From Candidatus Bathyarchaeota archaeon (GTDB lineage Archaea > Thermoproteota > Bathyarchaeia > TCS64): a stretch of DNA of 64,000 bases. Positions within the stretch are counted from its first letter, which is position 1, and each line of letters starts with the position of its first letter. The stretch lies in contig JAOZHP010000151.1 of assembly GCA_026014815.1 (NCBI GenBank), positions 62,001-126,000 of the forward strand, written 5' to 3'. The position numbers and the translations under genes were made by a program. Below are positions 23,349 through 48,871 of this stretch, piece after piece. The notes under the pieces are model-generated. The model saw nothing but the letters and a program-made list of their open reading frames with translations. It had not been told where the DNA came from and did not search any database.

Positions 23349-23418
23349 TCAATCACTTTTTATTTGCTTGTGTCGTTTTAGGTTCAGCATCATTGATTAT
23401 TGATTGAGGAAAATAGCA

Positions 23419-30294: not shown

Positions 30295-31459
30295 CCCCTT
30301 TCAACTCAACACGAATTTTACCTGAAAGTAATAGTTGCATTAGTCCTTGTTTGACTAAATTTAGATGTTTCTTTTTTTCTTTTTCATATAGTAGTTTTTT
30401 ATCATGATTTTCTAAAATTGATATAATTTTGTCTTGTTCCTTTTTCGGTGGAATAAATATTGGAACTTTTTTAAAATTTTTAGAGGCTATTCCTTTGAGA
30501 GTAGTACCAGTTGCTCTCATAAAACATTCTTTTTTTACATTATAATCTTGTAAAGCATACATTATGAATTTATTCAATAAAAGGCCTTTTTTTGATCGTA
30601 AACACACCAATCTTTGTGCAAGAGAAATTATTATATTGAAATTAATTTCAGCAACTTCTCCTAAAGGACCTTCGGTTGTAAAAAGAATGTCTCCTTTTTC
30701 TGGAAGCCCTCTAGTCATATATTTTTTATATGTGTCTTCTGAAACATATTTTAAATCTTCAAATATTACATTTCCGTCTCGAATATTATTTGATCTTATA
30801 TGAGGAATCCCTGAATCTGAATATGGTGGTGTTCTACCTCTATAATCAATAATTTTGCATATATTTCCAATTGGTAGAATTACCCAGTTTTTAGGTCTAT
30901 CACCTAAAGGTGTTTCCTTGTATTCCGTGTGTCCTATGCCTCTGGTGAAGAGTCGCTGCATGAGGCCCCGTTTCAGCTCCTCAGCCCTCTCGATGACCGC
31001 GTCCGTCAGACGGATACACTCATCCACCGTCCCCAGGACCTCGACGATACCACGCTGCTCAACAAGAGGAGGAATAGGAATTCTCAGGTAGCGTAAATCA
31101 CCAATAGACAAACTAGGTAGTGTAGTTTGTGTTTTTTCGCTAGATAATTTTCGATATGTCAAATATTCCGATAGAAAATTATAGTCGAGTTTCTTCGATT
31201 TCAGTTTTAAATAAAAGGTTGTATCTGAAGGCCAACAAGGTTCTTTTATTAATTGTATTGAACCAGCGTTACCTTTTCTACCAATAAGAATAGACGGGGC
31301 ATCAACTAAAGATTCATCAGTGCTATCATAAACACCGGATGACCCAATTACAGGTATATTTCCCTCTTTTTTTGGGTTAGCTTTTCCATAATTTATTTCT
31401 GTTAGTGCTTCGTCACCTAGCCTTCCTTGTCGCCATGGTCCTAATGGATTATTGTTCAT
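30251..31459 (-). CDS. hsdS: Type I restriction enzyme, specificity (S) subunit
   Basis: 402 residues. Two target-recognition domains (about 1-125 and 180-345) are separated by conserved helical spacers (EVLGTVDECIRLTDAVIERAEELKRGLMQRLFTRG and ILENHDKKLLYEKEKKKHLNLVKQGLMQLLLSGKIRV). The recognition domains are encoded by very AT-rich DNA while the first spacer (30905-31085) is GC-rich, which fits exchange of recognition cassettes. Overlaps hsdM by 11 bases. Recognition sequence cannot be predicted. Confidence 0.92.
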   Translation of the reverse strand: MNNNPLGPWRQGRLGDEALTEINYGKANPKKEGNIPVIGSSGVYDSTDESLVDAPSILIGRKGNAGSIQLIKEPCWPSDTTFYLKLKSKKLDYNFLSEYLTYRKLSSEKTQTTLPSLSIGDLRYLRIPIPPLVEQRGIVEVLGTVDECIRLTDAVIERAEELKRGLMQRLFTRGIGHTEYKETPLGDRPKNWVILPIGNICKIIDYRGRTPPYSDSGIPHIRSNNIRDGNVIFEDLKYVSEDTYKKYMTRGLPEKGDILFTTEGPLGEVAEINFNIIISLAQRLVCLRSKKGLLLNKFIMYALQDYNVKKECFMRATGTTLKGIASKNFKKVPIFIPPKKEQDKIISILENHDKKLLYEKEKKKHLNLVKQGLMQLLLSGKIRVELKGDGLHRIGDGGKANN

Positions 31460-33059
31460 AGCCTAACTCCTTTAGATATACTACGAGTTTTTCTTCGGTT
31501 TCATGTCTTCGGTTTTCAAGCTCTTTGAGTTGGTCCCATACTTGCTGAATATCCACTGGCTCAGGGGGGTCAAAGATATCTACGTACCTTGTAACGCTGA
31601 GGTTCCAGTCATTCTCTTCAATCTCGTCTACTCCAACAACCCGTGAATACTTGTCTACATTACTGAAACCGTCAAACACCTCAACAATACGATGTATATC
31701 CTCATCCCTGAGTTGGTTCATATTACTTAGTTTCTCGAAACCTTCAGCAGCATAGGCAAACAGCACCTTACCTTTTCGAGCTTCAGTTTTATTTCTACTC
31801 AGATAGATCAGACAGCCTGGAGCACCAGTGTTATAGAACAACTTCTCGGGAAGAGCCACAACGCACTCAACGAGATCATCCCTTAGCACAGACTCCCTGA
31901 CCTTTCCCTCTGCTCCACCCCGGAATAGAGCACCCTGATCAAGCACGATGCCCATCCTGCCCGTCTCATTCATACTGGCAAGCATATGCTGAATCCAACC
32001 CCAGTCCGCGCTGCTGTTATTCACAACGCCATACCCGAACCGATCATACTGGTCGTCCTCCATGTACTGCTTGAACCCCTTCTGGTTCCACATCGGATTC
32101 GCGATAACCAGATCAAACTTCTTGAGCTCCCCTCCATCGAGAAACTGGGGGTTCACGAAGGTGTCCCCCTGCTGGATTTGCGCACTCATCCCGTGCAGGA
32201 ACACGTTCATCTTCGCCATGGCCCACGTCTCATCGTTGATCTCCTGACCGAACAGGAACAGATTACTCGCATCCAGCCCCCTCTCCTTCAGGTAGAAATA
32301 CGACTCAATCAGCATACCCCCCGACCCACAGCAGGGATCATACATCTCCATCCCCTCCCCCGGCTTCAGGCACTCCACCAGCACCCGCACAATCTCACGG
32401 GGAGTATAGAACTCCCCAGCCCTCTTCGGAGCCGCCTCGTTAAATTTCTTCAACAAATACTCGTAAGCATCCCCCAGCATATCCTGGGAGACGTTCCCGT
32501 TGGCCAGATTCCGCTGACTGAAATGCTCAATAAGCCTAACCAACCGCTCCTCCGGAATCGCATTCGGATTATTGAAATCCGTCCTGTTGATCACACGGTC
32601 AATATCAGGATTCGCCCGGGCAATCGCCTCCAGAACATCGTTCAGCTTGGAACCCACGTTCACCCCAGTGGCCCGCACATCCTCCCAGAAACACCCCTCG
32701 GGAACCTCATGATCGTAAAACATCTTATCCCGGGCCACCTCCTCATTCCCGAACTCCGCCAGCTTCGCATCATACGTCACACGATACTCATCGCTCAACC
32801 GCTTGAAGAACAACAACGGCAACATGAAATCCTGATAATCCTCAGCCCTCACCGCCCCCCGCAGAATATCCGCACCACCCCACAGCCAACTCCCTAGATC
32901 AGCCCTACTGTTAATCCCGTTAGTCGCCTTCACGTCATTCGCCAACTTAGCCTGCCTTTTACCTCTTCCACGCTTCCGCTTCACAGGCTCCAAGTTAAAA
33001 TCCACACTCACAACGGGCACCCGGATACATGGAATAAACGCAACCCCTGATAAAACCAT
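31449..33059 (-). CDS. hsdM: Type I modification methylase (M subunit)
   Basis: 536 residues as opened at 33059; the true start is probably some 20 codons later, before KRKRGRGKRQAK. Helical N-domain with GSWLWGGADILRGAVRAEDYQDFMLPLLFFKRLSDEY, SAM site YDPCCGSGGML, catalytic NPMW (a variant of NPPF/Y, N6-adenine methylase). Needs HsdS for target choice. Same operon as hsdS and hsdR. Confidence 0.93.
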   Translation of the reverse strand: MVLSGVAFIPCIRVPVVSVDFNLEPVKRKRGRGKRQAKLANDVKATNGINSRADLGSWLWGGADILRGAVRAEDYQDFMLPLLFFKRLSDEYRVTYDAKLAEFGNEEVARDKMFYDHEVPEGCFWEDVRATGVNVGSKLNDVLEAIARANPDIDRVINRTDFNNPNAIPEERLVRLIEHFSQRNLANGNVSQDMLGDAYEYLLKKFNEAAPKRAGEFYTPREIVRVLVECLKPGEGMEMYDPCCGSGGMLIESYFYLKERGLDASNLFLFGQEINDETWAMAKMNVFLHGMSAQIQQGDTFVNPQFLDGGELKKFDLVIANPMWNQKGFKQYMEDDQYDRFGYGVVNNSSADWGWIQHMLASMNETGRMGIVLDQGALFRGGAEGKVRESVLRDDLVECVVALPEKLFYNTGAPGCLIYLSRNKTEARKGKVLFAYAAEGFEKLSNMNQLRDEDIHRIVEVFDGFSNVDKYSRVVGVDEIEENDWNLSVTRYVDIFDPPEPVDIQQVWDQLKELENRRHETEEKLVVYLKELGYEQ

Positions 33060-33096: not shown

Positions 33097-34041
33097 TCAC
33101 TTCCCCATCATAAACAAAGCCATCTCAACATCACTAACACTGAAAGGATACCCCTTCTCACCCAGATACCAACCCATGATCCCCAGCACCCAAATCAACC
33201 GCTCATAATTCTCAGCCCAAACTCTATCCAAACAAACATCACCGGGACGACCCCTACCAACAGGACACTTAATCAACCTGACACCATCCTCATCCACCAG
33301 ACTCCTCAAAGCAGTACCAACCCGGCTATCATAAACAGCGTAAAGGTTCTGATCATACAAACCAATAACCTTCGAAGCACTAGCTATACCAACCCCACGA
33401 ACAGACAACAACCTAAGAGTAGCGGACACTAAATCCCCGGCATCGAGCAACGAAAACGCCTCACCTGTAACCCTCAACGCCTCATCCTCATCCAAAGCGA
33501 TATGCCTCAAACCACCCCAATCCATCACACGATCCAGAGTCCCAAGATCAACACTACCCTTATTGAGAATCCGAGACCTAACAATAGAGGTCTGAATCGA
33601 GTTTCTTTCCCGAACACAACCCAACATAGGTTTATCGCCCCACGAATAATTCCTACGAGCCTCAACAACCTCCTCGAAATGCTCTTCAGCCCAATTTTCT
33701 ACGATGTCTCCATACTCCTCAATAAACGCACCTTTAGGATCACTAGACCCCTCGACAGGACAGAGCTTGGTCTCAACTGGAGTCAACGTGAAATCCAGAC
33801 TAAATCTCCCAGAGCCATGATACTTGAAATAAGGGTGATTCCTCCGAGTCGAGGGATAATGGGGGCTAGAAGGATGTTCGGGAGCCATAGCAATAACATA
33901 AGTCCGTATGGAAGTGTCAGGTATCTCTGGATACTTCTCATGAACACGGCGAATCACATCCATAGGCTTGAAAACAGCCAAGTCAAGACTCTTAGCAGCC
34001 TCAAGAACAATCTTCCAGATAGGCTCACCATACTTAGACAA
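33097..34041 (-). CDS. DUF7669-like / helix-hairpin-helix protein of the RM operon
   Basis: 314 residues, TTG start directly after the stop of the upstream nuclease gene. Residues 1-82 (GEPIWKIVLEAAKSL...IRTYVIAMAPEHPSSPHYPSTRRNHPYF) resemble DUF7669, a winged-helix-like domain seen with restriction genes. Residues 204-245 (SATLRLLSVRGVGIASASKVIGLY) look like the helix-hairpin-helix of DNA glycosylases, though no glycosylase lysine is obvious. Likely a DNA-binding partner of the GIY-YIG protein. Domain names are from memory. Confidence 0.6.
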   Translation of the reverse strand: MSKYGEPIWKIVLEAAKSLDLAVFKPMDVIRRVHEKYPEIPDTSIRTYVIAMAPEHPSSPHYPSTRRNHPYFKYHGSGRFSLDFTLTPVETKLCPVEGSSDPKGAFIEEYGDIVENWAEEHFEEVVEARRNYSWGDKPMLGCVRERNSIQTSIVRSRILNKGSVDLGTLDRVMDWGGLRHIALDEDEALRVTGEAFSLLDAGDLVSATLRLLSVRGVGIASASKVIGLYDQNLYAVYDSRVGTALRSLVDEDGVRLIKCPVGRGRPGDVCLDRVWAENYERLIWVLGIMGWYLGEKGYPFSVSDVEMALFMMGK

Positions 34042-35304
34042 CTAAACACCATCCTTCCTAAAACGAACCCATTCCCCAAGAGAAACACCATTAATTAACC
34101 AACCAAAATCAGTCCAAGCTCTACTATGAGGCTGCCCACTATTAGCCCACCAAGGACGATGCTCAAAAGCAGAATCCGGCAACCCAAACCCGAGTATCTC
34201 CTCAACTTCATCATACGACAGAGTAACTACATCATCAGAACACTCATCAAGATACTCTCCAATCTTCCTGTACTTACCGGAATAACCTGTTTTTTTACCC
34301 GATGATCTTGGAATTGATTTGTTCCATGGAGGCTTCACTTTCCCAATAAGTTTCGGTTCAATAGCATCAATGTCAGTTGTTTCATGGAAATATAGCTCAA
34401 CCAAAAAACCGTCCTTGACTTTTTCAAGAATCAGGTTATTTATTCTACAGTTCGTTTGCTGACCGCCGTCAAAACAGTTCCTCGGTGAAATGTTCCCATA
34501 TCCCTGATTGAAACGCTTGCCAAGGTCATCCGCTTTTCCAATATACATCCAGTCCCCATTAATCCTAATTGCGTACACTCCCTTTGAACCATTATAATTA
34601 GATGGAATCCGGAAAGAACAGAACGGACCTAGCCCATAAGAATGAAGGCTCAAACCCTTTGTGTTGTTATAACGTTTGTCAGGGTTATGCTCATAAACAG
34701 AACCAGACTCATCTCTAGCTGGCTCTATATTACAAATCTTCATAAATCGATACCCCAAAATCCTAGAAGTACTTGAGTTGTCAAACAATCTAAGCAATCT
34801 AAACTGCTCCTCACTTAACACAAGCTCAGAATTTCTGTGCTCAGTGAAAACCATCGCCTCCTCCCAGTCCCCCTTCCTAACACTCGTAGCTAAGCCCACC
34901 CTAACCCCCCTTTCTCTAAGCTTAGTCATCAGCTTCGCCATATTGAAAAGATAAACCTGAGAAATAATCAATGGGCGAGTCTTCCCACGGGAACTGGAAA
35001 GATCGCCCTCCGCACCAGTCATAACAAGATAATAATCAGCAAGATGATCAGGGTTGATATCCAGAATATTCTCCTTTTTCCCGTAGAGCTTAACATTAAC
35101 AGATTTACCCTTCAAAGAACCCTCGATAAAACAACCGTCAATACCCTTAGCCGTTGCAGATAGCTCCAACTCTATAATGAAAATCTTGGAAGAGATATAA
35201 TCCCCTATATGCCCAATCAAAGCAGGTCTACCAATAATCCCAGCGATCTCCTCAGAAACCCGATTCCTCTCAGAAACCAGATTAGCCAACCTTTCTAAAC
35301 TCAT
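34042..35304 (-). CDS. Predicted three-domain nuclease: DUF6998-like, GIY-YIG, DUF7662-like
   Basis: 420 residues. Residues 1-170 resemble DUF6998, a PD-(D/E)XK-like domain (GHIGDYISSKIF...GIDG...SVNVKLY). Residues 241-330 are GIY-YIG (GVYAI 242-246, MYIGKA 253-258, R264, E316 in IEPKLI). Residues 365-417 resemble DUF7662 (LPDSAFEHRPWWANSG...WLINGVSLGEWVRF). ATG 35304 has GGTGG 8-9 nt upstream. First gene of the operon. It may be a second restriction nuclease, or a helper of the type I enzyme. Confidence 0.7.
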   Translation of the reverse strand: MSLERLANLVSERNRVSEEIAGIIGRPALIGHIGDYISSKIFIIELELSATAKGIDGCFIEGSLKGKSVNVKLYGKKENILDINPDHLADYYLVMTGAEGDLSSSRGKTRPLIISQVYLFNMAKLMTKLRERGVRVGLATSVRKGDWEEAMVFTEHRNSELVLSEEQFRLLRLFDNSSTSRILGYRFMKICNIEPARDESGSVYEHNPDKRYNNTKGLSLHSYGLGPFCSFRIPSNYNGSKGVYAIRINGDWMYIGKADDLGKRFNQGYGNISPRNCFDGGQQTNCRINNLILEKVKDGFLVELYFHETTDIDAIEPKLIGKVKPPWNKSIPRSSGKKTGYSGKYRKIGEYLDECSDDVVTLSYDEVEEILGFGLPDSAFEHRPWWANSGQPHSRAWTDFGWLINGVSLGEWVRFRKDGV

Positions 35305-35328
35305 AAACCAGCCACCTACATATTAGAT

Positions 35329-35627
35329 TCAGATAAACTTGAAAAAATTAACTATGCAAACAAAGAACTTAATCAATACAAGAAAACCAACCTAGACAAC
35401 ATATAGAACAAAGACGAATCTCTAGAACTGGAGAACCTACCGGAACCGGAGGTACTTGCATCTGAAATCATCGAGAACCTGGAGGACACCATTGAACAGG
35501 TTCACAGTCGAATACATGAACCACCAAGATTCTCCTTTTGTCTCAGAACGAAAAAAGGTACTATCTTTAAAGTCAGAAAAATCCTAGAATGGCGTTCGCA
35601 GTACTATAAATACGTTCGCACATAGCG
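35329..35627 (+). pseudogene. Degenerate tail of an hsdM-like gene (remnant 1)
   Basis: The plus-strand frame holds KDESLELENLPEPEVLASEIIENLED, typical of the C-terminus of type I M subunits of a different subfamily from the intact hsdM here. The usual DI-x-W before KDE reads DNI then TAG at the tryptophan position, a TGG to TAG nonsense change, and the tail after 35510 diverges. It faces the start of the operon on the other strand. Confidence 0.6.
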
Positions 35628-35681: not shown

Positions 35682-35827
35682 TGACACCACAGGCGCCCTC
35701 AACCTAGGCAAACAACAGGCATCCTAATCGTAGACGGAGGCACCTCAGAGACCTCCTCGACTTCGAAAACAAGGAAAACATCAAAATAGTGATGAACGGA
35801 GGCATCATCGAAGCAGATAGACACTAG
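35682..35827 (+). pseudogene. Decayed C-terminus of an amidohydrolase
   Basis: The last 26 codons read DLLDFENKENIKIVMNGG and a few more residues to TAG 35827, the usual end of imidazolonepropionase/prolidase-like amidohydrolases. The preceding GILIVDGGTS is in another frame, so at least one frameshift has occurred. Only a scrap of the gene remains. Confidence 0.45.
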
Positions 35828-35884: not shown

Positions 35885-36127
35885 GTGCCATCCAAGAGCA
35901 TACACATCACAGAAGAGGTATACCTGCTCCTCACAAAGATGAAGCTAACCGGAGAAAGCTTCAGCGACACAATCAAAAGACTCGCCAAACGAGAAAGCGT
36001 CCTAGACGCCGCAGGTCTCTGGAAAGATGTACCCAAGAAAGAGATAGACGAGTTCTGGGCAGCAATCCATGATACACGGAGAAAATTAAGCAAGTCAACG
36101 CGGACAAGACCCAATATAAATCACTGA
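35885..36127 (+). CDS. VapB-family antitoxin without a toxin partner
   Basis: 80 residues, GTG start at 35885 after a TATA-like ACATATACT (35874-35882). SKSIHITEEVYLLLTKMKLTGESFSDTIKRLAKRE is the ribbon-helix-helix-type VAPB_antitox domain, and the tail (LDAAGLWKDVPKKEIDEFW) is the part that would wrap a PIN toxin. The next 75 bases hold no PIN gene; the dipeptidase fragment follows at once, so the toxin may have been lost by the insertion. Confidence 0.7.
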   Translation: MPSKSIHITEEVYLLLTKMKLTGESFSDTIKRLAKRESVLDAAGLWKDVPKKEIDEFWAAIHDTRRKLSKSTRTRPNINH

Positions 36128-36202: not shown

Positions 36203-36362
36203 CTAAGAAAACCAAGAGAATGGATAGACGCTAGCCGCAGACCTCTTTTATCAGCCGCAGATGGTTCCTGCCCAGGATATCTAGAATATCTTCGAGGCTG
36301 TACTCTCGCCTCACCAGCTCCTCCGTTATGTTGGGCATCTTGGTTACATCCTCCAGTCCAAC
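36203..36362 (-). repeat. Left direct repeat: displaced 3' end of the dipeptidase gene
   Basis: Matches 38519-38676 with about 16 differences in 158 positions, in the same orientation. The part 36231-36362 encodes, on the minus strand, the last 43 residues of the M19 dipeptidase and its stop codon, and every coding difference is synonymous. The similarity also includes about 27 nt past the stop. It ends abruptly at 36362, where an hsdM tail begins. Read as an attachment-site-like copy left by an insertion. Confidence 0.8.
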
Positions 36363-36509
36363 TTCGACATCACATGGATCAAAGACGAATCACTCGAAGA
36401 ACTCGAAAACCTACCAGACCCAGAAATACTAGCAGCAGAAATCATAGAAAACCTAGAAGACGCTTTGGAGCAGTTCAGGGCAATACAGGAAACCTTGGAA
36501 GAAGAATAA
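36360..36509 (+). pseudogene. Tail of an hsdM-like gene (remnant 2)
   Basis: Open frame from the repeat junction to TAA 36507-36509: NFDITWIKDESLEELENLP, then PEILAAEIIENLEDALEQF and a short acidic end. It is the C-terminal 49 residues of a type I M subunit, homologous to remnant 1 but intact in frame. The rest of the gene is missing; the break coincides with the end of the dipeptidase copy. Confidence 0.65.
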
Positions 36510-36547
36510 ACCTTCTTTTCGTCTTTTGATTATAATATACCATAAAA

Positions 36548-36619
36548 CGGTATACTGCAATCAAAAATAGAAATAATTATTTATTGTTTTCATTACAGTA
36601 TACCGTAAAAGGGTATACT
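36548..36619. promoter_or_regulatory. Inverted-repeat operators of the abiE operon
   Basis: CGGTATACTG (36548-36557) and CAGTATACCG (36596-36605) are exact inverted copies 38 bp apart. A third half, GGGTATACT (36611-36619), abuts the abiEi ATG. AbiEi antitoxins are known to repress their operon by binding inverted repeats, so these are probable sites. Confidence 0.6.
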
Positions 36620-37432
36620 ATGATCAAAAACAGCAAAGAACACTCGCAAGAAACCCTCTACAACTGGATACTAAAACGGAATTCAGCAACAAATGAGGAG
36701 ATCATTTCCCAGTTCAAAAACAGCCCAGACCCCAAATACATCTACATCAAGTACCTCAATCCTCTCCTCAAAAGAGGAAAAATTGACAGAGTACGACGAG
36801 GCCTCTACACTGCCATCGACCCAATAACCGAGAGACCGGCAGCAGACCCCATCATCGTTGCCTCCAAGATCAGAGAAAACTACTATCTCGGATACTACAC
36901 CGCCCTAACACTCCACGGCACAGCGTACAGCGCCAGAACACAGACCCACATATGTGTTAACCCGAGCCACAAATTCAAAGAGTTCCACTATAACGGCGTC
37001 ACATACACACCAATCTACACAGAGGACACAGAAACCAACATCCAGACCATAAACCACCGGGGACACCAAGTCCGAGTATGCGGAAAAGAAAGATTACTCA
37101 TAGAACTCGTAGACAAACCTGAACGCGTCGGAGGATGGGAGCAGGCACTAAAAAGCCTCGAAAGCCTAGGCGGCATAGACTACGACCAGATACCCACACT
37201 GCTCAGGAAAAAAGACACCCAAATCGTAACACGAAAAACAGGATACATACTGGAACTCCTCCAGCAACACAGCATCTACCACAAACACCTACCACAGGAA
37301 ACACAACAAGAAATACAGAACATGATAAAAGGCCAACCAGAATACCTAGAAAAAACCAAGTCCGGGCCACTAAACAAAAAATGGATGCTATACATTCAAC
37401 CCCGATTCACCGAGTACCTCCGAGGAATCTAA
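36620..37432 (+). CDS. abiEi: AbiEi antitoxin / transcriptional repressor
   Basis: 270 residues from ATG 36620. Residues 10-65 are a winged helix (TLYNWILKRNSATNEEIISQF...LNPLLKRGKIDRVRRGLYTA), followed by the AbiEi C-terminal domain (YYLGYYTALTLHGTAYS...GKERLLIELVDKPERVGGWEQALKSLESL). It neutralises AbiEii and represses the operon. The toxin gene starts one base after its stop. Bracketed by the dipeptidase repeats. Confidence 0.85.
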   Translation: MIKNSKEHSQETLYNWILKRNSATNEEIISQFKNSPDPKYIYIKYLNPLLKRGKIDRVRRGLYTAIDPITERPAADPIIVASKIRENYYLGYYTALTLHGTAYSARTQTHICVNPSHKFKEFHYNGVTYTPIYTEDTETNIQTINHRGHQVRVCGKERLLIELVDKPERVGGWEQALKSLESLGGIDYDQIPTLLRKKDTQIVTRKTGYILELLQQHSIYHKHLPQETQQEIQNMIKGQPEYLEKTKSGPLNKKWMLYIQPRFTEYLRGI

Positions 37433-37433
37433 A

Positions 37434-38363
37434 ATGAGCAGCTACGACTACAGACAACTGGAATCCAAGTACCAATACAATCCCCCACAAATCGAAAAAG
37501 TATGCAGAATAAGCGACATCCTAGAAACCATCTCACAGATACCATTCCTAAGTGAAAGACTATCCCTGTACGGGGGAACCGCCCTGAACATCATCCACTT
37601 CCCACAGATCCAACGCCTCAGCGTGGACATCGACTTCAACTACCGCCACCAAGGCGAAACCAAAGACTGGGGAAAAATACGCAAAGAGATCGATGAAGCC
37701 ACTAAACAGATCCTAGAAGCACAGACATACAAACCAGACGACATCAAGATCGACGCATCATATCCCCTGAGCAGGTTCACAGTCAAGTACAAGAACCACC
37801 AAGGAGTCAACGACACATTCAAAATCGAGACAGGTTACATGCGCCGCACACCTATCCTTGAAACAGACGCACACATGGACTTCCACCACATAGGCACCGG
37901 CAGAACCCTAAAAGTAAAGACTCCGAAAACAGAGGAACTCTACGCCAATAAACTGGTGACCCTGCTGTCAAGAGCCACTCCCAGAGACCTCTACGACGTC
38001 AATATCATCGCAAGTACTCCAGTGGACAGGGACACCCTGAGAAAATGCGTCATCCTTGAAAGCCTAATGAGTCTTCAGGAACCAATCACGAAGGTTGATA
38101 CCAGAAAAATCGTCAAAAGCACCCCCCTCGACGAAAGCCTCAAGTCAGTACTGAGAATAAAACAGAGACCAGATATCGAAAAGATACGGGAAAACGTGGT
38201 CCAGTTCAGCGAAACCCTGATCAGCAACCTAACAAAAAACGAGAGAGAATGCATAGACCACTTCTATACCCTGAGACAGTTCCAACCCGAACTCCTAGAG
38301 CTAACTGAAATAAATTCTCAGATAAACAGTCATCCCGCTATTCTCTGGGCACTAAAAAACTAG
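37434..38363 (+). CDS. abiEii: AbiEii toxin, nucleotidyltransferase
   Basis: 309 residues. GGTALNIIHFPQIQRLSVDIDFN is the DNA-polymerase-beta-type nucleotidyltransferase motif (G-G/S followed by DxD) of AbiEii/MenT toxins, and KTEELYANKLVTLLSRATPRDLYDV is the downstream catalytic-support segment. Family members arrest growth on phage infection by modifying tRNA or related targets; the target here is unknown. Motifs look intact. Confidence 0.85.
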   Translation: MSSYDYRQLESKYQYNPPQIEKVCRISDILETISQIPFLSERLSLYGGTALNIIHFPQIQRLSVDIDFNYRHQGETKDWGKIRKEIDEATKQILEAQTYKPDDIKIDASYPLSRFTVKYKNHQGVNDTFKIETGYMRRTPILETDAHMDFHHIGTGRTLKVKTPKTEELYANKLVTLLSRATPRDLYDVNIIASTPVDRDTLRKCVILESLMSLQEPITKVDTRKIVKSTPLDESLKSVLRIKQRPDIEKIRENVVQFSETLISNLTKNERECIDHFYTLRQFQPELLELTEINSQINSHPAILWALKN

Positions 38364-38518
38364 AAACTATTTCCCAGCTCCTTGAAAACCCAGCAAACCT
38401 AGGTATAATCCGAGGTTCTCTGTCAAGAACCGGTATCTCCGAGTATCTAAGATAGGTATGACTACGAATCAAAACATCGTAACAACGTTCACCGAGGCAA
38501 TTAACCGTACAAGGCGGG

Positions 38519-38676
38519 CTAAGAAGACCAAGAGAATTGATGGAGCTAGCCACACACCTCTTTTATCAGCCTCAGATGGTTCCTGCCGAGGATATCAAGG
38601 ATGTCCTCAAGGCTGTACTCCCGTCTCACCAGCTCCTCCGTTATGTTGGGCATCTTGGTTACATCCTCCAGTCCGA
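38519..38676 (-). repeat. Right direct repeat: functional 3' end of the dipeptidase gene
   Basis: Partner of 36203-36362. This copy is joined to the complete dipeptidase gene and includes about 27 nt beyond its stop codon. Confidence 0.8.
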
Positions 38677-39544
38677 CAGGCGTGTACGGAATTCCATCAA
38701 AGTCTGAGCCGAGGCCTACGTGCTTTGGTCCTACAAGGTCTACGATGTGGTCAATATGGTCTACAACACCTTGCACTGTGGCCAGCTCAGGGTGAACGAA
38801 GCTTGGGGCAAAGTTCATCCCCATCACGCCGCCGTCATCAGCAAGCGCCCTGATCATGTCATCCGTCATGTTTCTGGGGTGGTGACAGACGGCTCTGCTG
38901 TTGCTGTGACTCGCGATGACAGGCATACTCGTCTGGTCCATCACGTCCCAGAACCCCTCGTCGTTCAGGTGACTCACGTCGATGATGACGCCGAGGCGAT
39001 CAAGCATCTCCACCGCCTCCACCCCCAGCTTACTTAAACCTCCACCCGTCCGGTTATCCGCTACCCCATCAGCCAGCGGGTTCCTGAGGCTGTGAACGAG
39101 GCCCACCATCCTTACGCCGAGGCGGTGGAAGACCCTGAGCATCTCCACCTTTCCCTCGATGACGTCAGCGCCCTCGATGCTCAGCAGCCCAGCCACCTTG
39201 CCGTCCTTCTTTGCCTGAAGTATCTCGTCATGCGTCGTCACGGGTACGATGCTCTTCTTGTTCGCCTCACATTCAGTGTAGAATCTGTCGATCATCTCAA
39301 GCGCTGTGCGGAGGGGGTGCCTCGGCATCCTGCTCCTCTCGCTGCTGACGGCGAAGACTTGACATGTGACGCCTCCCTCCTTGAGCCGGGGGATATCCAG
39401 GTGTCCAACGCTGGACTTGATTCCCATCCCGATGTTGCTCCTGTCCTCCCACATGCTGTCCTTGGGCCGCGTGAACTCAGGCAACAGGCATTTGAGGGTG
39501 TCGCAGTGGGTGTCCACCACCACTGCCTCGCTGTGAAGTGTCAT
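38546..39544 (-). CDS. Membrane-dipeptidase family (M19) dipeptidase
   Basis: 332 residues from ATG 39544 (MTLHSEAVVVDTHCDT); an earlier start at 39583 is less likely. Zinc ligands: the DTHCDT histidine and aspartate, bridging glutamate in SIEGAD, histidines in IIDVSHLN and VIASHSNSRAV, aspartate in GLGSDFDG. Hydrolyses dipeptides, often with a D-residue at the C-side. Its last 43 codons are duplicated at 36231-36362, so the 3' end may have been supplied by an inserted element. Confidence 0.92.
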   Translation of the reverse strand: MTLHSEAVVVDTHCDTLKCLLPEFTRPKDSMWEDRSNIGMGIKSSVGHLDIPRLKEGGVTCQVFAVSSERSRMPRHPLRTALEMIDRFYTECEANKKSIVPVTTHDEILQAKKDGKVAGLLSIEGADVIEGKVEMLRVFHRLGVRMVGLVHSLRNPLADGVADNRTGGGLSKLGVEAVEMLDRLGVIIDVSHLNDEGFWDVMDQTSMPVIASHSNSRAVCHHPRNMTDDMIRALADDGGVMGMNFAPSFVHPELATVQGVVDHIDHIVDLVGPKHVGLGSDFDGIPYTPVGLEDVTKMPNITEELVRREYSLEDILDILGRNHLRLIKEVCG

Positions 39545-39650
39545 GTGATCCAAAACAATCCCTAATCCATCTTGGTGAACCATGTAAATAGGGTTAACCC
39601 TCAGGTCGAAGCCGTTAAATCCGCTTCAGGTGGCATCTAGTGGGATTCAC

Positions 39651-40049
39651 ATGGTAAACGTACCAGAAAACATCATGGAAGCATTCACCTCTCAACAAGT
39701 CATCCCAATGGCCACCGTCAACAGTGACGGAGTCCCCAACGTCATCTACGTGGGCATGTGGTGGTGGGAGAACCCCGAGACCCTATGCGTCATCAACAAC
39801 TACCTCAACAAGACCCTCACCAACATCAACCATAACGGCTGGGTCAGCTTCGTCTGCTACGGCAAAAACGGCAGCTACCAACTCAAATGCAAAGCCGAAG
39901 ACGTAACAGAGGGCCCCATCTACATGAAAGGCCACAAGATAGCCACCGACCGCGACAAACCCTACCTAGGAAGATCAGTGATAACTTGCAAGGTAACGGA
40001 GATCTATCAGGGATCAGGTGGAAAAGGCGCAGGCGACAAACTCGCCTAA
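39651..40049 (+). CDS. Pyridoxamine 5'-phosphate oxidase-like flavin protein
   Basis: 132 residues from ATG 39651; an in-frame GTG at 39630 is possible. ENIMEAFTSQQVIPMATVNSDGVPNVIYVGMWWW...NNYLNKTLTNINHNGWVSFVCYG is the split-barrel fold of the PPOX family, which binds FMN or F420. The reaction is unknown. Convergent with the DUF2153 gene one base after its stop. Confidence 0.8.
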   Translation: MVNVPENIMEAFTSQQVIPMATVNSDGVPNVIYVGMWWWENPETLCVINNYLNKTLTNINHNGWVSFVCYGKNGSYQLKCKAEDVTEGPIYMKGHKIATDRDKPYLGRSVITCKVTEIYQGSGGKGAGDKLA

Positions 40050-40050
40050 C

Positions 40051-40380
40051 TTAGATAACGAACCGGTGAGGATCCTCTTCACGCTGCTTGCCAAGACCCT
40101 TCTTCATGCCGATGTCCGTGATGTCCCTGTCGTGCTCCACGAATTTTATCACCATGTCTATGATGGTGTCGCTCATCTCTTGGAGCTCTTGCTGGTTGAA
40201 CTGGCTCATAATCTCTGGGCTGTTCACCCACTGCATCCAGCCGCTGAGGCTCTGCCCAAGACTGCCGAAGCTGAAACGCATGCCTTTCACAAGGTCCAGG
40301 CGGTCTAGGTCACGTTTCTCCCGTAGTTCTTTAAGTTGTTCCAGTGTTTTCTGGCTTCTATCGATCCAGCTTACGTTCAT
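40051..40380 (-). CDS. DUF2153-like archaeal protein
   Basis: 109 residues, mostly helical. The pattern SQKTLEQLKE...DRLDLVKGMRFSFGSLGQSLSGWMQWVNSPEIMSQF resembles DUF2153, an archaeal family of unknown role. No catalytic motif. Confidence 0.65.
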   Translation of the reverse strand: MNVSWIDRSQKTLEQLKELREKRDLDRLDLVKGMRFSFGSLGQSLSGWMQWVNSPEIMSQFNQQELQEMSDTIIDMVIKFVEHDRDITDIGMKKGLGKQREEDPHRFVI

Positions 40381-40472
40381 CTTGGCTTCGGGCTTAGATA
40401 GAATTGGTTTGTATTAAACAGTGTGGCACAGGTGAGGATTTAAATCTCTGCTTCAAGGTTAATTGACGTTGG

Positions 40473-40559
40473 GCCGGGGTCGCTTAGCCTGGAAGAGCGC
40501 CAGCCTGGAAAGCTGGTGTCCTCACGGACACAAGGGTTCAAATCCCTTTCCCGGCGCCA
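40473..40559 (+). tRNA. tRNA-Ser(GGA)
   Basis: 87 nt including an encoded CCA. Acceptor GCCGGGG pairs with TCCCGGC (last pair G-T), discriminator G. Anticodon stem CCAGC/GCTGG around loop CTGGAAA, anticodon GGA (reads UCC/UCU serine codons). Long variable arm GTCC-TCAC-GGAC and T arm AAGGG/CCCTT with TTCAAAT, as expected of a class II serine tRNA. No intron. A TATA-like ATTTAAAT at 40437-40444 sits about 30 nt upstream. An AT-rich pair of genes begins directly after it. Confidence 0.96.
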
Positions 40560-40618
40560 ATTTACATGTAAAAGTAAAAGTTGATAATTGGTTATATTCC
40601 GAAATATTCATGAAAAAA

Positions 40619-40978
40619 TTAGTCGGGAGTTTGTGCGACTGTTTGCTCCTGTTTAGGTAAGCTAACTATCTTTGAGCCACCAAGACCTTCCCGAGTAAAC
40701 TTTACTTTACCTTCTGCTTCTAACTCATTTACATAGTTGTTTATCGCGACTCTACTTATTGGGAATTTATACTGTTCTGAAAAAATCCTTCTCAGATCCT
40801 GTATGGTGTATCTAATTCCCGGATCGAGGCATTTGTATAATGCATTTTTACGGTCATTTTTTGTGGCATAGGTAGTGGCAAGGAAGATTTCTGAAAATTG
40901 TTCCTTTACAATCTTTAACATTTTTTCTTTTTCTGAGCCGACACTCGCAGGAACTTCTTTTTGTTTCTTTTTTGCCAT
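40619..40978 (-). CDS. Winged-helix regulator next to tRNA-Ser
   Basis: 119 residues from ATG 40978 (MAKKKQKEVPAS). The C-terminal half, YTIQDLRRIFSEQYKFPISRVAINNYVNELEAEGKVKFTREGLGGSKIVSL, is a winged helix-turn-helix; the N-terminus is basic and helical. Upstream lie a TATA-like CTTATTAAG (41007-41015, minus strand) and the palindrome at 40989-41006 covering the likely transcript start, so self-repression is expected. AT-rich compared with the flanks. Confidence 0.65.
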   Translation of the reverse strand: MAKKKQKEVPASVGSEKEKMLKIVKEQFSEIFLATTYATKNDRKNALYKCLDPGIRYTIQDLRRIFSEQYKFPISRVAINNYVNELEAEGKVKFTREGLGGSKIVSLPKQEQTVAQTPD

Positions 40979-40988
40979 ACTCATAGAA

Positions 40989-41006
40989 GTTGAAACGTGT
41001 TTCAAC
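40989..41006. promoter_or_regulatory. 18-bp inverted-repeat operator
   Basis: GTTGAAAC-GT-GTTTCAAC has perfect 8-bp arms. A further half site, GTTTCAAC, is at 41023-41030. Together they flank the TATA-like element of the winged-helix gene and lie between it and the metallopeptidase gene. Confidence 0.65.
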
Positions 41007-41035
41007 TTAATAAGAATTGTGTGTTTCAACCGTTA

Positions 41036-42178
41036 CTAACACGTAAATACCTTTAATATTTTTTGCATAATTTCCTCTTCCTGGCTAACTGATAATTCAT
41101 GCGTTCTTGAGAAAATTAATCCGTTGAGAACTTGTACTGGGGAATATTCATCAAGAGAAAGATCTTCTTCTTTGGTGATTCGATCTGCAATTTCTTTGCT
41201 TAAATCCCATTCATCGGAGGAAAAAAATCGAATATTCTCTTTCAAGTGGGGGTAAAGTCGATCAAATTTTTCGTTTATCGTGTCCAGTGAATTTTGGATA
41301 TTCCTTACACGATTTGAAAAAAGTTCTTCATATTCAGGGCTCTCAGAAAGATCAATATCTTTGTATAAATCCACAAGATCTGGAATAGGAAAATCATTAG
41401 CAATCCCCAAGTCAGTCAAAATGCGATTATGAATATGGAAACGTAACTCACATGGTGGATGTGTATGAAACGTTCTTAGATACTCGGCCTCACTTCCAGG
41501 ATGAAAAGCCCAAAACGTTGGTGCCATTGCATGAGTATGTAATAAGCTTGGTCCAACAGATAATGTCCCAATAATATCAGAGATAATTTCGATTTCCCAA
41601 TTTTCTACAATGTCTTCTATTATGGGTTTTCCTTCATCATCAAATGGTGAAGAATGAAAAACTGGATCTGGTTCAATATAGCTCTCTAAGATATCATGTC
41701 CTAATTCATGCGCGACGAAACCTAAGTTCCAATATCGATAATAATCCGTGAACCTACACCAAATAAAATTCATAGGGTGGACTTTTCTGTATCTATCTCC
41801 TCCAAAAATACCAAGAAATGGAAAAGGCTCTCTATCCATATTTTGACGTTCAATTATTTCATGGCAGATTGCATCTAAAATATTATGTGCGTCTCGAAAA
41901 ATGAATCTAGGTAAGCCAAATCTTATTGATAAATCGGATAAATAACTTTCAAATTCTTTGATTTTAAAATGAGCATAACTAACTCCCTGCCAACTTTCAA
42001 AAAATGGGGAGTCTAATTCATCAATGTCATCGAGGTTATTTTCAACAATCCTCCGAAACAATCGAATAGATTCGTGCAACGAAGGGTCTTTCGTACGAGT
42101 ACGATAAACATCGATGTCATTTATAATATTGTGATAGCATAACACTTGTTCGTTTTTTAATTTATCAAAATAATCCAA
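41036..42178 (-). CDS. HELGH-motif metallopeptidase-like protein, family unknown
   Basis: 380 residues. GFVAHELGHDIL gives a zinc motif H157-E158-x-x-H161, and 36 residues on NWEIEIISDIIG offers E197-x-x-x-D201, the gluzincin (thermolysin-like) third-ligand pattern. Otherwise unlike families I know; no signal peptide, so probably cytoplasmic. It is strongly AT-rich and ends 6 bp before the operator region of the winged-helix gene downstream. With that gene and the tRNA it looks like a small acquired unit, perhaps a protease/regulator switch (inference). Confidence 0.6.
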   Translation of the reverse strand: MDYFDKLKNEQVLCYHNIINDIDVYRTRTKDPSLHESIRLFRRIVENNLDDIDELDSPFFESWQGVSYAHFKIKEFESYLSDLSIRFGLPRFIFRDAHNILDAICHEIIERQNMDREPFPFLGIFGGDRYRKVHPMNFIWCRFTDYYRYWNLGFVAHELGHDILESYIEPDPVFHSSPFDDEGKPIIEDIVENWEIEIISDIIGTLSVGPSLLHTHAMAPTFWAFHPGSEAEYLRTFHTHPPCELRFHIHNRILTDLGIANDFPIPDLVDLYKDIDLSESPEYEELFSNRVRNIQNSLDTINEKFDRLYPHLKENIRFFSSDEWDLSKEIADRITKEEDLSLDEYSPVQVLNGLIFSRTHELSVSQEEEIMQKILKVFTC

Positions 42179-42277
42179 AGACGGTCACTATTAACTATAT
42201 TTAATACTTAAAAATCTTTTACAGTAAATGTAAACCATCTGTTATATGGTCTTAAATTATTTTGCAACCAGAGTTTC

Positions 42278-42291
42278 AGGGCCCCAGCCCT
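42278..42291. other. Hairpin in the non-coding stretch 42179-42432
   Basis: AGGGC-CCCA-GCCCT is a perfect short hairpin in otherwise AT-rich DNA without a visible gene. It may end a transcript. Confidence 0.3.
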
Positions 42292-42432
42292 TTAGTAATT
42301 GCTTTTATTAATTCTTGTCTCTCATCTAAGCCTGATTTGTTGGAATCTGTAAATTATTTTACGTGCAATTATTTTCTGTAGAATCATGAGTATTTTTTAT
42401 GGTTATTCTTGAAACGTCTTGTGGCGCGGGTC

Positions 42433-42636
42433 TCATACGTTAATTTCAAGTTCCTTGAGAAGCTGTTTCAAGGGCTTGGTATCTCCTCGTTCTGCGTCGC
42501 TTAACGCCTCTTTGATCTCTTTTTGCAGTTCCATGTCTTCGGATACTTCTATGGTTTCGATCAACTGTTCCATGAGGTTAGCCGCGTTTTTGATCAATTG
42601 TTTCTCTTCTTCAGTGAGAAGATTCATCAAGCCCAT
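42433..42636 (-). CDS. Small helical protein, antitoxin-like
   Basis: 67 residues (64 if started at the second ATG, 42627). Nearly all helix: TEEEKQLIKNAANLMEQLIETIEVSEDMELQKEIKEALSDAERGDTKPLKQLLKELEI. The ALSDAERGDTKPLKQLLKEL ending is like tails of small antitoxins, but no toxin is adjacent. A gene on codon pattern; function unknown. Confidence 0.5.
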   Translation of the reverse strand: MGLMNLLTEEEKQLIKNAANLMEQLIETIEVSEDMELQKEIKEALSDAERGDTKPLKQLLKELEINV

Positions 42637-42675
42637 GTGGGTTTTGATGTTAATTAAGAGTTGTTTATACTTGTG

Positions 42676-43212
42676 TCACCGATCTATCGATGCATCGTCT
42701 AGTTTTTTACGCACCTGAATCACCTCAAGCTGGGCGATCAGTGAAGTTAAGCTTGTTCTCTCCAAGTCATCTATATATGGGTCCCAACCGAACAGGAACC
42801 CTGCTGCCCTGGGGAAGCTGCTGATGTACCATCGGATGGCTTCCTCCTTCTCATCGGCATCGAGAACCTTGATCTCTGGCCTGAAGCTCCTGAACCCGAT
42901 CCTTACCCTGGCTTCAGATGGGTTGGCCTTCAGATTCCTCAGCCAATCAGTTTTCTTGCCTCTACTTGCGAACAGGTGTATCACCTCATCCTTTTTCCTG
43001 TACTCCAGTGGCGTCGTGCGTCTCTTCCCAGTTCTTCGGCCAACAGTTATGAGAAGTAGGAAGTATCCGCTGCCCACCAAGGTAAGCAGCCCGGTCTTGT
43101 AGAGGAAGACGACAACATGGTTTATGCGTTTCCAGTTCTGGAGGGTTCGCCTTCGTTTTTCGGGGTCCTCCTGTGTCAAAGAGTAGAGGGCTGAGCCTTT
43201 ACGGGGGAACAA
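42676..43212 (-). CDS. Deazaflavin (F420)-dependent nitroreductase-family protein
   Basis: 178 residues. LLLITVGRRTGKRRTTPLEYRKKDEVIHLFASRGKKTDWLRNLKANPSEARVRIG is the Ddn/DUF385 signature, a split barrel binding F420. It suggests the cell makes F420. Substrate unknown. Confidence 0.8.
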   Translation of the reverse strand: MFPRKGSALYSLTQEDPEKRRRTLQNWKRINHVVVFLYKTGLLTLVGSGYFLLLITVGRRTGKRRTTPLEYRKKDEVIHLFASRGKKTDWLRNLKANPSEARVRIGFRSFRPEIKVLDADEKEEAIRWYISSFPRAAGFLFGWDPYIDDLERTSLTSLIAQLEVIQVRKKLDDASIDR

Positions 43213-43308
43213 TGAACCACCAGTTAATCTGAGATGCCTCAGGCTTTGACGGTTTCCGTGCCTTCAATGTTTAAGTAGTCTTCTGATGCCCTTATTCTCG
43301 GTGTTTAT

Positions 43309-43944
43309 TTGGTAGAGGTACTGAAAGGGCTCCACAGCATGGATCACAGCGAAGCTGGGAACCATCAGATGGAGTCATGGATACTTGACTGCGACGACTG
43401 CCTTATTCTGATAGACGGAGGCATGAGGCAGAAAGCCCTCGACAACATAGAAGCAGAGCTCAGAGAGATGAGCAAAGAATGGGCCGACGTATCCCTAATA
43501 CTCATCACCCACAAGCACGGCGACCACATACAGAACCTTGCCCGGCTCGTCGAACTCACAGGAGCCCCAGTTAAGGCACATGAACTGGAGGCCCCGCTGA
43601 TCAAGGAAGCCGTAGGAGTCTATGTGGAAGGACTAGAAGACAAAGCGGTGCTGGGGTACTGCGGAGGCATCGAGGTCATCCACGTGCCCGGGCACAGCGA
43701 GGGCAACGCATGCTATTACCTGCCTGCCCTCAAAGCGGTCATCGCTGGAGACACCATTTTCGGCGACGATGAGGGCAACATCAACCCGCCTCCAGAGAGG
43801 TACTGCCTGGACGTGGACCAAGCAACAAAGGAGATCAAGCGGCTGCTGGACTACGAGTTCGATCACATCCTATTCACCCACGGCAAGGACATCATGGGCG
43901 ACGCCAAGGCCAAGGTACAGGAACTCGTGGACAGGTTCTGCTAG
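43309..43944 (+). CDS. Metallo-beta-lactamase-fold hydrolase
   Basis: 211 residues, TTG start. Metal motif THKHGDH, then PGHSEGN, AGDTIF and the final THG histidine are all present. Resembles glyoxalase II-like hydrolases. Convergent with nothing; the MFS gene follows 49 bp later and could share the transcript. Confidence 0.88.
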   Translation: MVEVLKGLHSMDHSEAGNHQMESWILDCDDCLILIDGGMRQKALDNIEAELREMSKEWADVSLILITHKHGDHIQNLARLVELTGAPVKAHELEAPLIKEAVGVYVEGLEDKAVLGYCGGIEVIHVPGHSEGNACYYLPALKAVIAGDTIFGDDEGNINPPPERYCLDVDQATKEIKRLLDYEFDHILFTHGKDIMGDAKAKVQELVDRFC

Positions 43945-43993
43945 CCCTCCCTGATCGAAGACCATAACTAGGCAGGAACCGTAATCAGGCTCT

Positions 43994-45178
43994 ATGAGCC
44001 GGCTCCTAGGGCGGTGGGAGTACAACTACACCGTGCTCCTCATCACGTGGATGGGATGGATAAGCATCTACCTCGCCCGGAGCGTGTTGCCGCCTGTCCT
44101 CCCTGTCTTATCCACTGAGCTTGGCCTCACCCACGCCCAAGCGGGGCTCTTGGAAACAGCGTACCTCATCGGGTACATCATCAGCAAGCTCCCAGCGGGA
44201 GACCTCAGCAACAGGTACGGGGCAAGAAGGGTGCTTGCCGCCAGCATGGTGGGGTACGGCGCCTCAACCCTATTGATCACCGGAGCCCGAGGGTTCCTAG
44301 ACATCTTTGTGCTCCGTTTCCTCGTGGGCCTATTCCAGGGAGTACATCTCCCCGTGTCCAACGCGCTTCTCAGCGACAGGTTCAGAGGCAAGCAGGCACG
44401 GGCCATCGGGTTCAACGAGTCAGGGCCCAACATTGGGAACACGTTGGCCTTCCCGATCACCGTCACCATCATGGAGGCACTGGGATGGAGGTACGCGTTC
44501 CTCTTCCTCTCCATACCAGCATTCCTCCTATCCCTAGGCACAATGATATTGATGAAGGAGGAGCCCGAACGAGAGACAGAGCCAAGGCAAGGCCCGAAAC
44601 CCAGCCTAGGCTATTACAAGAGGATACTGATACCCTTCGCGTTGAGCCACGCCGCCTACAACCTGATTCTAAGAACTACTTTCACGTTCACGCCCAGCTT
44701 CTTGGTGGAGTTCAGGGGCATGAACATAGCTTTGGCGGGGCTCATATCCACAGTGTTACCCTTTGCGGGCATCTTCACGAAGATGGGCAGCGGCTTCATA
44801 ATGGAACGCGTAGGCTCAAAGCAAGCCATATTGGTGGCCAGTTCACTGAGTGCAGTCCTACTAAGCGCCTTGGTGATCTTCCCTGGTGGCTGGTTGACCT
44901 TGAATCTGCTGGCTCTGGGGTTGACCCTCTACAGCTTCAGCCCCATAATCTACGCAGGGACGACTTCCTCTCTTCCGAGGGAGTTAAAGGCTCTGGGGCT
45001 GGGCGTAGTCACTATATTCGGCAACATCGTGGGCGCTGTCTCCACCACTGCGGTTGGACTCGCCATCGACTCACGGGGATACGTGTTCACATTCATAGCA
45101 ATAGCGGGTGTCACCCTCGTCTCAGCGTTCATAATTCAGATTTCCATGAAAGAAGATGGCAGAGATATTGTCTTATAG
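43994..45178 (+). CDS. Major facilitator superfamily transporter
   Basis: 394 residues with twelve predicted membrane segments. GDLSNRYGARRVLAAS is the MFS loop 2-3 motif, and the N-half DSALLSDRF-like region (SNALLSDRFRGKQARAIGFNESG) is the loop 4-5 equivalent. Probably exports or imports an organic anion; substrate unknown. Confidence 0.88.
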   Translation: MSRLLGRWEYNYTVLLITWMGWISIYLARSVLPPVLPVLSTELGLTHAQAGLLETAYLIGYIISKLPAGDLSNRYGARRVLAASMVGYGASTLLITGARGFLDIFVLRFLVGLFQGVHLPVSNALLSDRFRGKQARAIGFNESGPNIGNTLAFPITVTIMEALGWRYAFLFLSIPAFLLSLGTMILMKEEPERETEPRQGPKPSLGYYKRILIPFALSHAAYNLILRTTFTFTPSFLVEFRGMNIALAGLISTVLPFAGIFTKMGSGFIMERVGSKQAILVASSLSAVLLSALVIFPGGWLTLNLLALGLTLYSFSPIIYAGTTSSLPRELKALGLGVVTIFGNIVGAVSTTAVGLAIDSRGYVFTFIAIAGVTLVSAFIIQISMKEDGRDIVL

Positions 45179-45223
45179 AAGAGTAGCCGTCAACCTTTTC
45201 CTTTCATCCTCCCAGTTTTCTTC

Positions 45224-45586
45224 ATGATCACCGCAGTACTATGGATGCGCTTCGAGTCAACAGAGAAAGCGTTGAAAAGCGGAAGACGCTTCAGCACCTG
45301 CCCCAAGGTACAGTTCTGGGCAAATAACGGACCTGAAGCATACGTTATACTTCACGTGGAGGATGATCAACGCTTCTGGACCGATTACGTGGGAGCCAAC
45401 CCTGAGACAGGGTTCGGGGGAGTCGAGGCCCAGCTAACATACATGGAAACACCGTTAAAACCATCAAAAATGTTCAGCCCAGTAGAGAAACGGGAAGGGG
45501 AAGTGGCTCCATGCGGAAGCAGGTGCCTCACCTGCCCCACCTACAAGAACCCCTGCACTGGCTGCCCCGCACTCATTTTACCCTAG
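45224..45586 (+). CDS. Small protein with Cys-rich C-terminus
   Basis: 120 residues. The last 30 contain CGSRCLTCPTYKNPCTGC, five cysteines spaced like the DUF3795 pattern and likely to bind zinc or an Fe-S cluster. The first 90 residues are not recognised. Its end overlaps the convergent oxidase gene by 9 bases. Confidence 0.6.
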   Translation: MITAVLWMRFESTEKALKSGRRFSTCPKVQFWANNGPEAYVILHVEDDQRFWTDYVGANPETGFGGVEAQLTYMETPLKPSKMFSPVEKREGEVAPCGSRCLTCPTYKNPCTGCPALILP

Positions 45587-46702: not shown

Positions 46703-46770
46703 ACTGAATCACAAAAAACCTGTAAACGTTGCTTATAGCTGGTTCGACTAAAATAGGGATGAAATGGAAG

Positions 46771-47304
46771 CTACTTGACTTCCTTGTACCATTCCTCTGG
46801 GGCGCCGTCGGTCTCCGGGTCGTAGTCAGTTGGCAGAAGCTCCTCGATCCCAAGAATCTCCGTGATGAAGCACTCTATTACTCCCTTAACGATGGTTCCC
46901 TCCGTCAGGTGCCCGCCCACGGTGGGCACGTCCCACGCACCCCCAATCACGTAGTGGATAGCAGGGAAAGGCGTCGGCTTACCGTCTTCTAGCCGTGTAT
47001 GAATCATGCCGCTCATGGCTACAAGCATGCTCAGGTTCTCGAAGCTAGCCGCTGACTCGTTGTGCCAATTGCTCGGGTCATGCGGATCGGGGCACCACAT
47101 GTACATCTTGGCTGGGCTGAAGCCACCCATGAACGCTGCGTGGATCTTACCGAACTTGATGCCCTTGTCAATGGCGAACTTCTGGATCGCCTTAAAGACA
47201 TCTGCTCCCGTGGTCAATCGGATAATGAACTCTCTTCCTCTCTGACATTCAACGCTATGATAGTCTGCGGGGTGAGTCGCGTCGCTTTCCCATGGATCTT
47301 TCAT
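46771..47304 (-). CDS. PPC/DUF296-domain protein
   Basis: 177 residues. GREFIIRLTTGADVFKAIQKFAIDKGIKFGKIHAAFMGGFSPAKMYMW...GHLTEGTIVKGVIECFITEI is the whole PPC domain. No AT-hook, so the DNA role known from plants does not carry over. Function unknown in archaea. Confidence 0.82.
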   Translation of the reverse strand: MKDPWESDATHPADYHSVECQRGREFIIRLTTGADVFKAIQKFAIDKGIKFGKIHAAFMGGFSPAKMYMWCPDPHDPSNWHNESAASFENLSMLVAMSGMIHTRLEDGKPTPFPAIHYVIGGAWDVPTVGGHLTEGTIVKGVIECFITEILGIEELLPTDYDPETDGAPEEWYKEVK

Positions 47305-47369
47305 GTTGATCCCTGAACCATGAAGCGGATGTATGAATAAAACCTTGAATGAAAACCAAAAGGAGGTTT

Positions 47370-47801: not shown

Positions 47802-47880
47802 ATGAACCACAGGGTGGAGCCATTAAAACGTTTATCTAAACCTGACGGCACCCAACAAAACATGAAAAATAGGTTATGGG

Positions 47881-48741: not shown

Positions 48742-48871
48742 GGAGTGCATAGGTGCTTTAGGGGCATAAATTGTTACCTGAACCTCGTTTTTTGTTGATA
48801 ATGGCTATATTGGGCCATGTAAGTGTCTTTGTTGATACTTGATGGAGAATTATATACTAGAATATACCTCC

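Follow-up and report, generated by a model that had tools for sequence, protein, structure and literature searches.

The locus analysed here raises the question of how the 3' end of a membrane dipeptidase gene came to stand twice, in the same orientation, on either side of an abiE operon, and whether a dedicated mobile element or recombination between versions of the surrounding defence island accounts for it. The window, i.e., the whole stretch of 64,000 nucleotides that was analysed, is part of a 187-kb contig in a Bathyarchaeia MAG that consists of 159 contigs and has 4.5% contamination. This genome was compared with 31 relatives, which are denoted by G and a number and of which G003, G004, G010, G015, G018, G019, and G024 are cited below. 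G003 and G004 belong to the same genus as the window genome and G010 represents another genus, and the dipeptidase is only 77-79% identical to those of the closest relatives.

A duplicated dipeptidase end around an abiE operon

The two direct copies comprise a left copy (L; 36203-36362, minus strand), which is a severed 3' end of 43 codons, stop codon, and 27 nt, and a right copy (R; 38519-38677, minus strand), which forms the 3' end and flank of an intact M19 membrane dipeptidase gene (38546-39583, minus strand; 345 aa; Pfam PF01244, E=1e-106). Among 160 aligned positions 144 are identical (90%), the copies being set apart by 15 substitutions and one indel at a spacing of 2315-2316, while both encode the same 43-residue C-terminus and run 27 nt beyond the stop. 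The repeat had been described in the initial annotation as carrying about 16 differences, an identical encoded C-terminus, and exclusively synonymous coding changes, and this description was confirmed throughout: none of the 11 differences counted over 42 codons alters an amino acid (NG86 pS=0.37). The probability of such an outcome is 1.2e-7 under neutrality, and ~4e-4 if just half of the changes fell on the now-silent copy. Both ends therefore diverged within working genes, L having lost its gene recently. The extent of the divergence is that of sister species, since G003 and G004 differ at 9 of 37 same-residue codons in the same stretch of the dipeptidase gene, and L and R at 11 of 41. Decay of L as a pseudogene in situ was considered and is ruled out by the complete lack of non-synonymous changes. 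Likewise, L is not part of a full second dipeptidase gene, since no such gene is located nearby. A second full dipeptidase allele was not found in the bin, nor was a third copy of the repeat in the genome, where L and R are the sole pair of this kind.

The differences between the copies are unevenly distributed. Over the 50 bp adjoining the junction at the end of L (36310-36359, minus strand) L is identical to R (38625-38674, minus strand), and every difference lies distal to this block. None of the 15 silently variable codons within the block is changed, as compared to 11 of the 26 beyond it (Fisher p=0.003, a post hoc value for a boundary chosen after the data were seen). Because these two parts of the dipeptidase end diverge equally at silent sites among 15 relatives (56% and 52%), the block is under no special constraint. 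It looks like a tract that was exchanged, that is, the crossover or conversion zone of a homologous recombination, or else like an att core.

The only genes between L and R are abiEi (36620-37432, plus strand; Pfam PF09407; PADLOC AbiEi, E=1e-35), encoding the antitoxin and autoregulator, and abiEii (37434-38363, plus strand; Pfam PF08843, E=1e-25; PADLOC, E=2e-64), encoding the nucleotidyltransferase toxin, so that the 2.3-kb unit lacks a recombinase, as had been noted previously. The toxin motif hG[G/S]..DhD, as defined for this family of nucleotidyltransferases (PMC3985639), is retained in AbiEii as YGGTAL...DIDF. Besides these adjacent members of the abiEi and abiEii families, the promoter region contains inverted repeats (TATACC...GGTATA; 36513-36640, plus strand, and 36587-36629), and characterised AbiE systems carry the inverted repeats IR1 and IR2 upstream of abiEi (PMC3985639). 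The repeat at 36513-36640 consists of two adjacent 64-nt arms that are 77% complementary and span the abiE promoter and start codon; these arms are predicted, and probably serve, as AbiEi operators. Judged from its sequence, the pair is probably an ordinary type IV toxin-antitoxin or abortive-infection system in function.

Gene remnants and gene order around the repeat

L and the abiE operon belong to an accessory defence island of ~12 kb, in which type I restriction-modification, toxin-antitoxin remnants, and abiE are found between PCNA and a rearranged dipeptidase block. On its left the accessory stretch is bordered by a conserved block from SRP54 to PCNA, the PCNA gene (23404-24171, plus strand) being the last clearly conserved core gene on this side, and an orphan vapB adds to the defence and toxin-antitoxin genes that lie between core genes here. 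The restriction-modification operon is intact (27418-33059, minus strand; hsdR 27418-30294, hsdS 30251-31459, and hsdM 31449-33059). Beside it, DUF7669 and DUF7662 domains were recognized in two genes (33097-35304), of which the second contains a GIY-YIG-like motif (GVYAIRINGDWMYIGKADDLGKRF) in addition; these genes, for which there is no PADLOC model, are possible unrecognised restriction partners. On the same contig to the right of the window, two pairs of tandem paralogous stretches with ~70% DNA identity were seen (L147:3214-7998 and L147:16816-18978).

At the junction 36359/36360 the dipeptidase tail runs directly into the final 49 codons of hsdM (36360-36509, plus strand), a gene truncated exactly at this point. 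The initial annotation had L ending abruptly in an hsdM tail, and the identity of this tail could be verified, because it is matched by the full-length HsdM encoded in the intact hsdRSM operon of a distant relative. The microhomology at the joint (36358-36362) amounts to CC, or to CC[A/G]AC with one mismatch, where 3-10 bp would be expected of an illegitimate border. Further to the left, a series of remnants was recognized that had been overlooked before. It starts with another hsdM C-terminal tail (35320-35493, plus strand), a degenerate and diverged paralogue of the tail at the junction, with an in-frame stop and a lost codon. This tail is fused, at a shared GA[A/G]CAGGTTCACAG, to a remnant of abiEii (PLNRFTVEYMNHQ; 35493-35528, plus strand) that is 89% identical over 36 bp to positions 37768-37803 of the intact toxin gene. 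A second, weaker abiEii match (35737-35771) and the orphan gene for a VapB-type antitoxin (35885-36127, plus strand; PF02697, E=1.6e-12) follow, no vapC being present beside the latter and no AbiEi remnant in the left arm.

The two hsdM tails are 77% identical (35387-35487 versus 36358-36461), with a pS of 0.73 and a dN of 0.10. Since this divergence far exceeds that of the dipeptidase tails (0.37), the hsdM tails are related modules that were gained or exchanged separately, and not one unit duplicated once. A one-time tandem duplication of a segment consisting of hsdM tail, abiE, and dipeptidase tail, appealing because of the equal gene order, is ruled out by the same comparison, the hsdM tails being synonymously saturated.

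The relatives revealed that the dipeptidase gene did not always border this island. In G003, G004, and G010 the insert is missing and the dipeptidase 3' flank has a different, older arrangement, in which the 3' end of the gene directly faces a PNP-family phosphorylase gene, with a 4-bp overlap in G003 and G004; in G018, G024, G015, and G019 the PNP gene is encountered one to six genes downstream of the dipeptidase. As the 3' end abuts the phosphorylase gene in the sister species, the dipeptidase of the window must have moved to its present site. Here the PNP/UDP phosphorylase gene (47881-48750, minus strand) shares the strand of the dipeptidase gene and is 9 kb away from it, and the genes upstream of the dipeptidase are still with it, which indicates that the dipeptidase block was flipped; the simplest event to bring its 3' end to the island border would be a ~9.3-kb inversion. 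The stretch 38546-48750 accordingly has the dipeptidase block inverted relative to the phosphorylase and TFIIB genes when compared to those relatives that have both on one contig. A simple empty site, in which the sequence left of 36203 would be joined to a single dipeptidase end, was not encountered, the dipeptidase end of the relatives facing another gene.

The PCNA side of the island is informative in G004. There, PCNA is followed by a gene for a PIN-domain toxin, a stretch of 60 bp, and, where the contig ends, a diverged abiEi gene. The 60-bp stretch is 85% identical, in the same orientation, to the abiE operator and first codons of the window, it is unique among the 31 relatives (32 genomes), and it shows that the abiE operator is conserved; neither a dipeptidase tail nor an hsdM tail is present at this G004 locus. 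The residence of window-type abiE in the PCNA-side island would thus predate the duplication of the dipeptidase tail and be independent of it, as suggested by this short scar near a contig end. These data speak against the earlier expectation that abiE and the left copy move together, since the G004 island carries the abiE scar without the dipeptidase tail. Short and close to a contig end as it is, the scar weighs more heavily than any other observation against delivery of abiE to this gene by a dedicated element.

In G018, 270 bp upstream of an abiEi-abiEii pair and on the same strand, there is another M19 dipeptidase gene without a flanking repeat (L144:7529-10638). The dipeptidase and abiE genes on contig 50 of G018 were considered as a parallel case and rejected, since the dipeptidase is another paralogue and there is no flanking repeat; their vicinity is probably a coincidence.

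Origin of the duplicated end

The initial annotation had attributed the repeat to an element that integrated at the gene end, with help in trans or by homologous recombination. The search for recombinases was confined to the tyrosine integrase family PF00589. No member was detected on the 187-kb contig, the three tyrosine integrases of the genome being on other contigs, or within ~50 kb of the orthologous dipeptidase gene in the 31 relatives, as far as their contigs extend. IMG/VR contained no match for the 50-bp block, the dipeptidase tail (queried as a 60-aa alignment), or AbiEii, and PLSDB no match for the abiE unit. In a phage collection AbiEii gave a single distant homologue with 31% identity.

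The reading that is favoured, and that is given about an even chance of being correct, is recombination between diverged versions of the PCNA-side defence island, for which the dipeptidase end served as anchor, rather than the arrival of a dedicated mobile element. Several observations lead to it: the divergence between L and R is synonymous only, the dipeptidase is flipped, G004 has the abiE scar without the tail, and tyrosine integrases are lacking on the contig and near the orthologues. Moreover, the neighbourhood is full of broken products, including the degenerate hsdM tail, the abiEii remnant fused to it, and the orphan vapB, and the 50 bp at the junction are identical, as opposed to 11 of 26 codons changed beyond them, in a block without special constraint. 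In homology-facilitated illegitimate recombination one homologous anchor is combined with an illegitimate joint (PMC3240628), and the dipeptidase tail, as the end of a diverged allele without any amino-acid change (pS 0.37), provides the homologous side. This process has also been proposed for the stacked effector modules of Vibrio, which leave gene ends displaced behind them (PMC5361080), and hotspots without integrases are exchanged via flanking core genes (PMC5635113), as haloarchaeal islands are at their conserved flanks (PMC11078007).

We infer the following order of events, as well as the donor and the joining mechanism. A rearrangement, most simply the ~9.3-kb inversion, would have set the dipeptidase 3' end at the right edge of the island. 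Later, DNA from a sister species with a diverged version of the same locus may have recombined with the resident version, the dipeptidase end acting as homologous anchor on one side, where the identical 50 bp would represent the exchanged or converted tract. On the other side an illegitimate joint would have connected dipeptidase codon 302/303 to the middle of an hsdM tail. This one-sided homology-facilitated recombination, or an equivalent single crossover of a circularised fragment, would have kept the dipeptidase gene on the right whole and left the last 43 codons of the other version stranded in the island beside an intact abiE operon. The earlier proposal of a homologous-recombination origin comes close to this reading. 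The proposed restoration of a gene end is retained in so far as the gene on the right is intact, L is displaced, and both ends were once functional, and finds no support with respect to the integration of an element. Arguments against recombination between island versions are that a sister genome with the donor arrangement was not found, the dipeptidases of the closest relatives reaching only 77-79% identity, that the junction microhomology is short, and that the pS of hsdM (0.73) is far higher than that of the dipeptidase (0.37), so that the two sides are not simply one locus duplicated once.

A further argument, the identical 50 bp that end exactly at the junction and are within the att length range, also suits site-specific integration, which is the main rival and is considered rather unlikely. 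Integration of the kind known for e14 in icd would involve an element with the hsdM tail, abiE, and a recoded dipeptidase end, the integrase having acted in trans or been lost later; the 50-bp block would be the att core, L the displaced original end of the host gene, and R the replacement supplied by the element. The e14 prophage duplicates 163 bp of icd in a similar manner (PMC6379469), among 68 integrated elements of thaumarchaea 14 have the 3'-distal region of a protein gene as their target, and the block falls within the 29-69 bp of crenarchaeal att sites (PMC6563490). An identical core precisely at the junction, followed by synonymous differences only, and a gene 3'-end direct repeat that restores the frame agree with this as well. 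However, the unit measures just 2.3 kb, ends within hsdM, and contains no recombinase, and no cognate one of the family PF00589 was detected in the element or at the same site in the relatives. Moreover, the genome holds no third copy of the site, the single phage AbiEii match does not amount to a viral or plasmid carrier, and this abiE type was present in the PCNA-side island of a sister without the tail, the G004 scar being left unexplained by an integration. A discrete 2.3-kb element integrated at the gene end is thus not well supported. That the locus would represent a family of minimal archaeal elements of ~2.3 kb with abiE cargo and without integrase, which insert into M19 dipeptidase 3' ends by means of a recombinase acting in trans and bring along a gene end recoded by synonymous changes, is held to be improbable.

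An old tandem duplication that included a complete dipeptidase gene, followed by silent divergence of the two genes, both still functional, and by deletion of most of one dipeptidase and of the 5' part of the second hsdM copy, would agree with the synonymous-only divergence of L and R. It would also agree with the arrangement to the left and right of the junction, where an hsdM tail, an abiEii piece, and a dipeptidase tail follow each other in equal order and on equal strands. Nevertheless, it has little probability, as the divergence of the hsdM tails is much larger than that of the dipeptidase tails, the stretches between the abiEii remnant and the tail are not alignable, none of the relatives has two adjacent orthologous dipeptidases, and the identical 50 bp would demand an additional gene-conversion step. 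Finally, two strain versions of the locus could have been misjoined through the 50-bp block, an exact repeat of this length being a typical switch point for short-k assemblies and the genome being a MAG with the fragmentation and contamination given above. Such an assembly chimera is improbable, since the contig traverses the block at two places that differ in their neighbours, a shared k-mer does not explain the joint between L and hsdM itself, and the bin lacks a second full dipeptidase allele.

Relation to known systems

The locus can be regarded as a readable snapshot of the turnover of defence genes beside a core gene in the Bathyarchaeia, which have no genetics. Set apart by silent changes only, the two versions of a gene end would record recombination between sister lineages together with an approximate breakpoint, and they caution that a duplicated gene end is not necessarily the att site of an integrase.

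The operon itself resembles other AbiE type IV toxin-antitoxin operons in its abiEi-abiEii bicistron, the operator-like inverted repeats upstream, and the intact toxin motif; it is ordinary, and only its surroundings differ. The e14 element in icd of E. coli shares the direct repetition of the last ~160 bp of a gene around inserted DNA, with the coding capacity kept by near-silent changes, but e14 is a 15-kb element, whereas the unit described here spans 2.3 kb, lacks a recombinase, and has a cargo that is also known in a sister lacking the tail. Homology-facilitated illegitimate recombination and the stacked Vibrio T6SS effector-immunity modules have in common with this locus one homologous anchor, displaced gene ends in an array of modules, and, as proposed here, one illegitimate joint; those bacterial cases were demonstrated experimentally or in a large number of strains, whereas the present one is deduced from a single archaeal assembly. 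Defence-island hotspots, including the haloarchaeal homeocassettes, likewise place accessory defence genes among core genes, lack an integrase, and recombine in the flanks, but they usually display clean swaps, whereas the exchange proposed here would have left a duplicated gene end and truncated genes behind.
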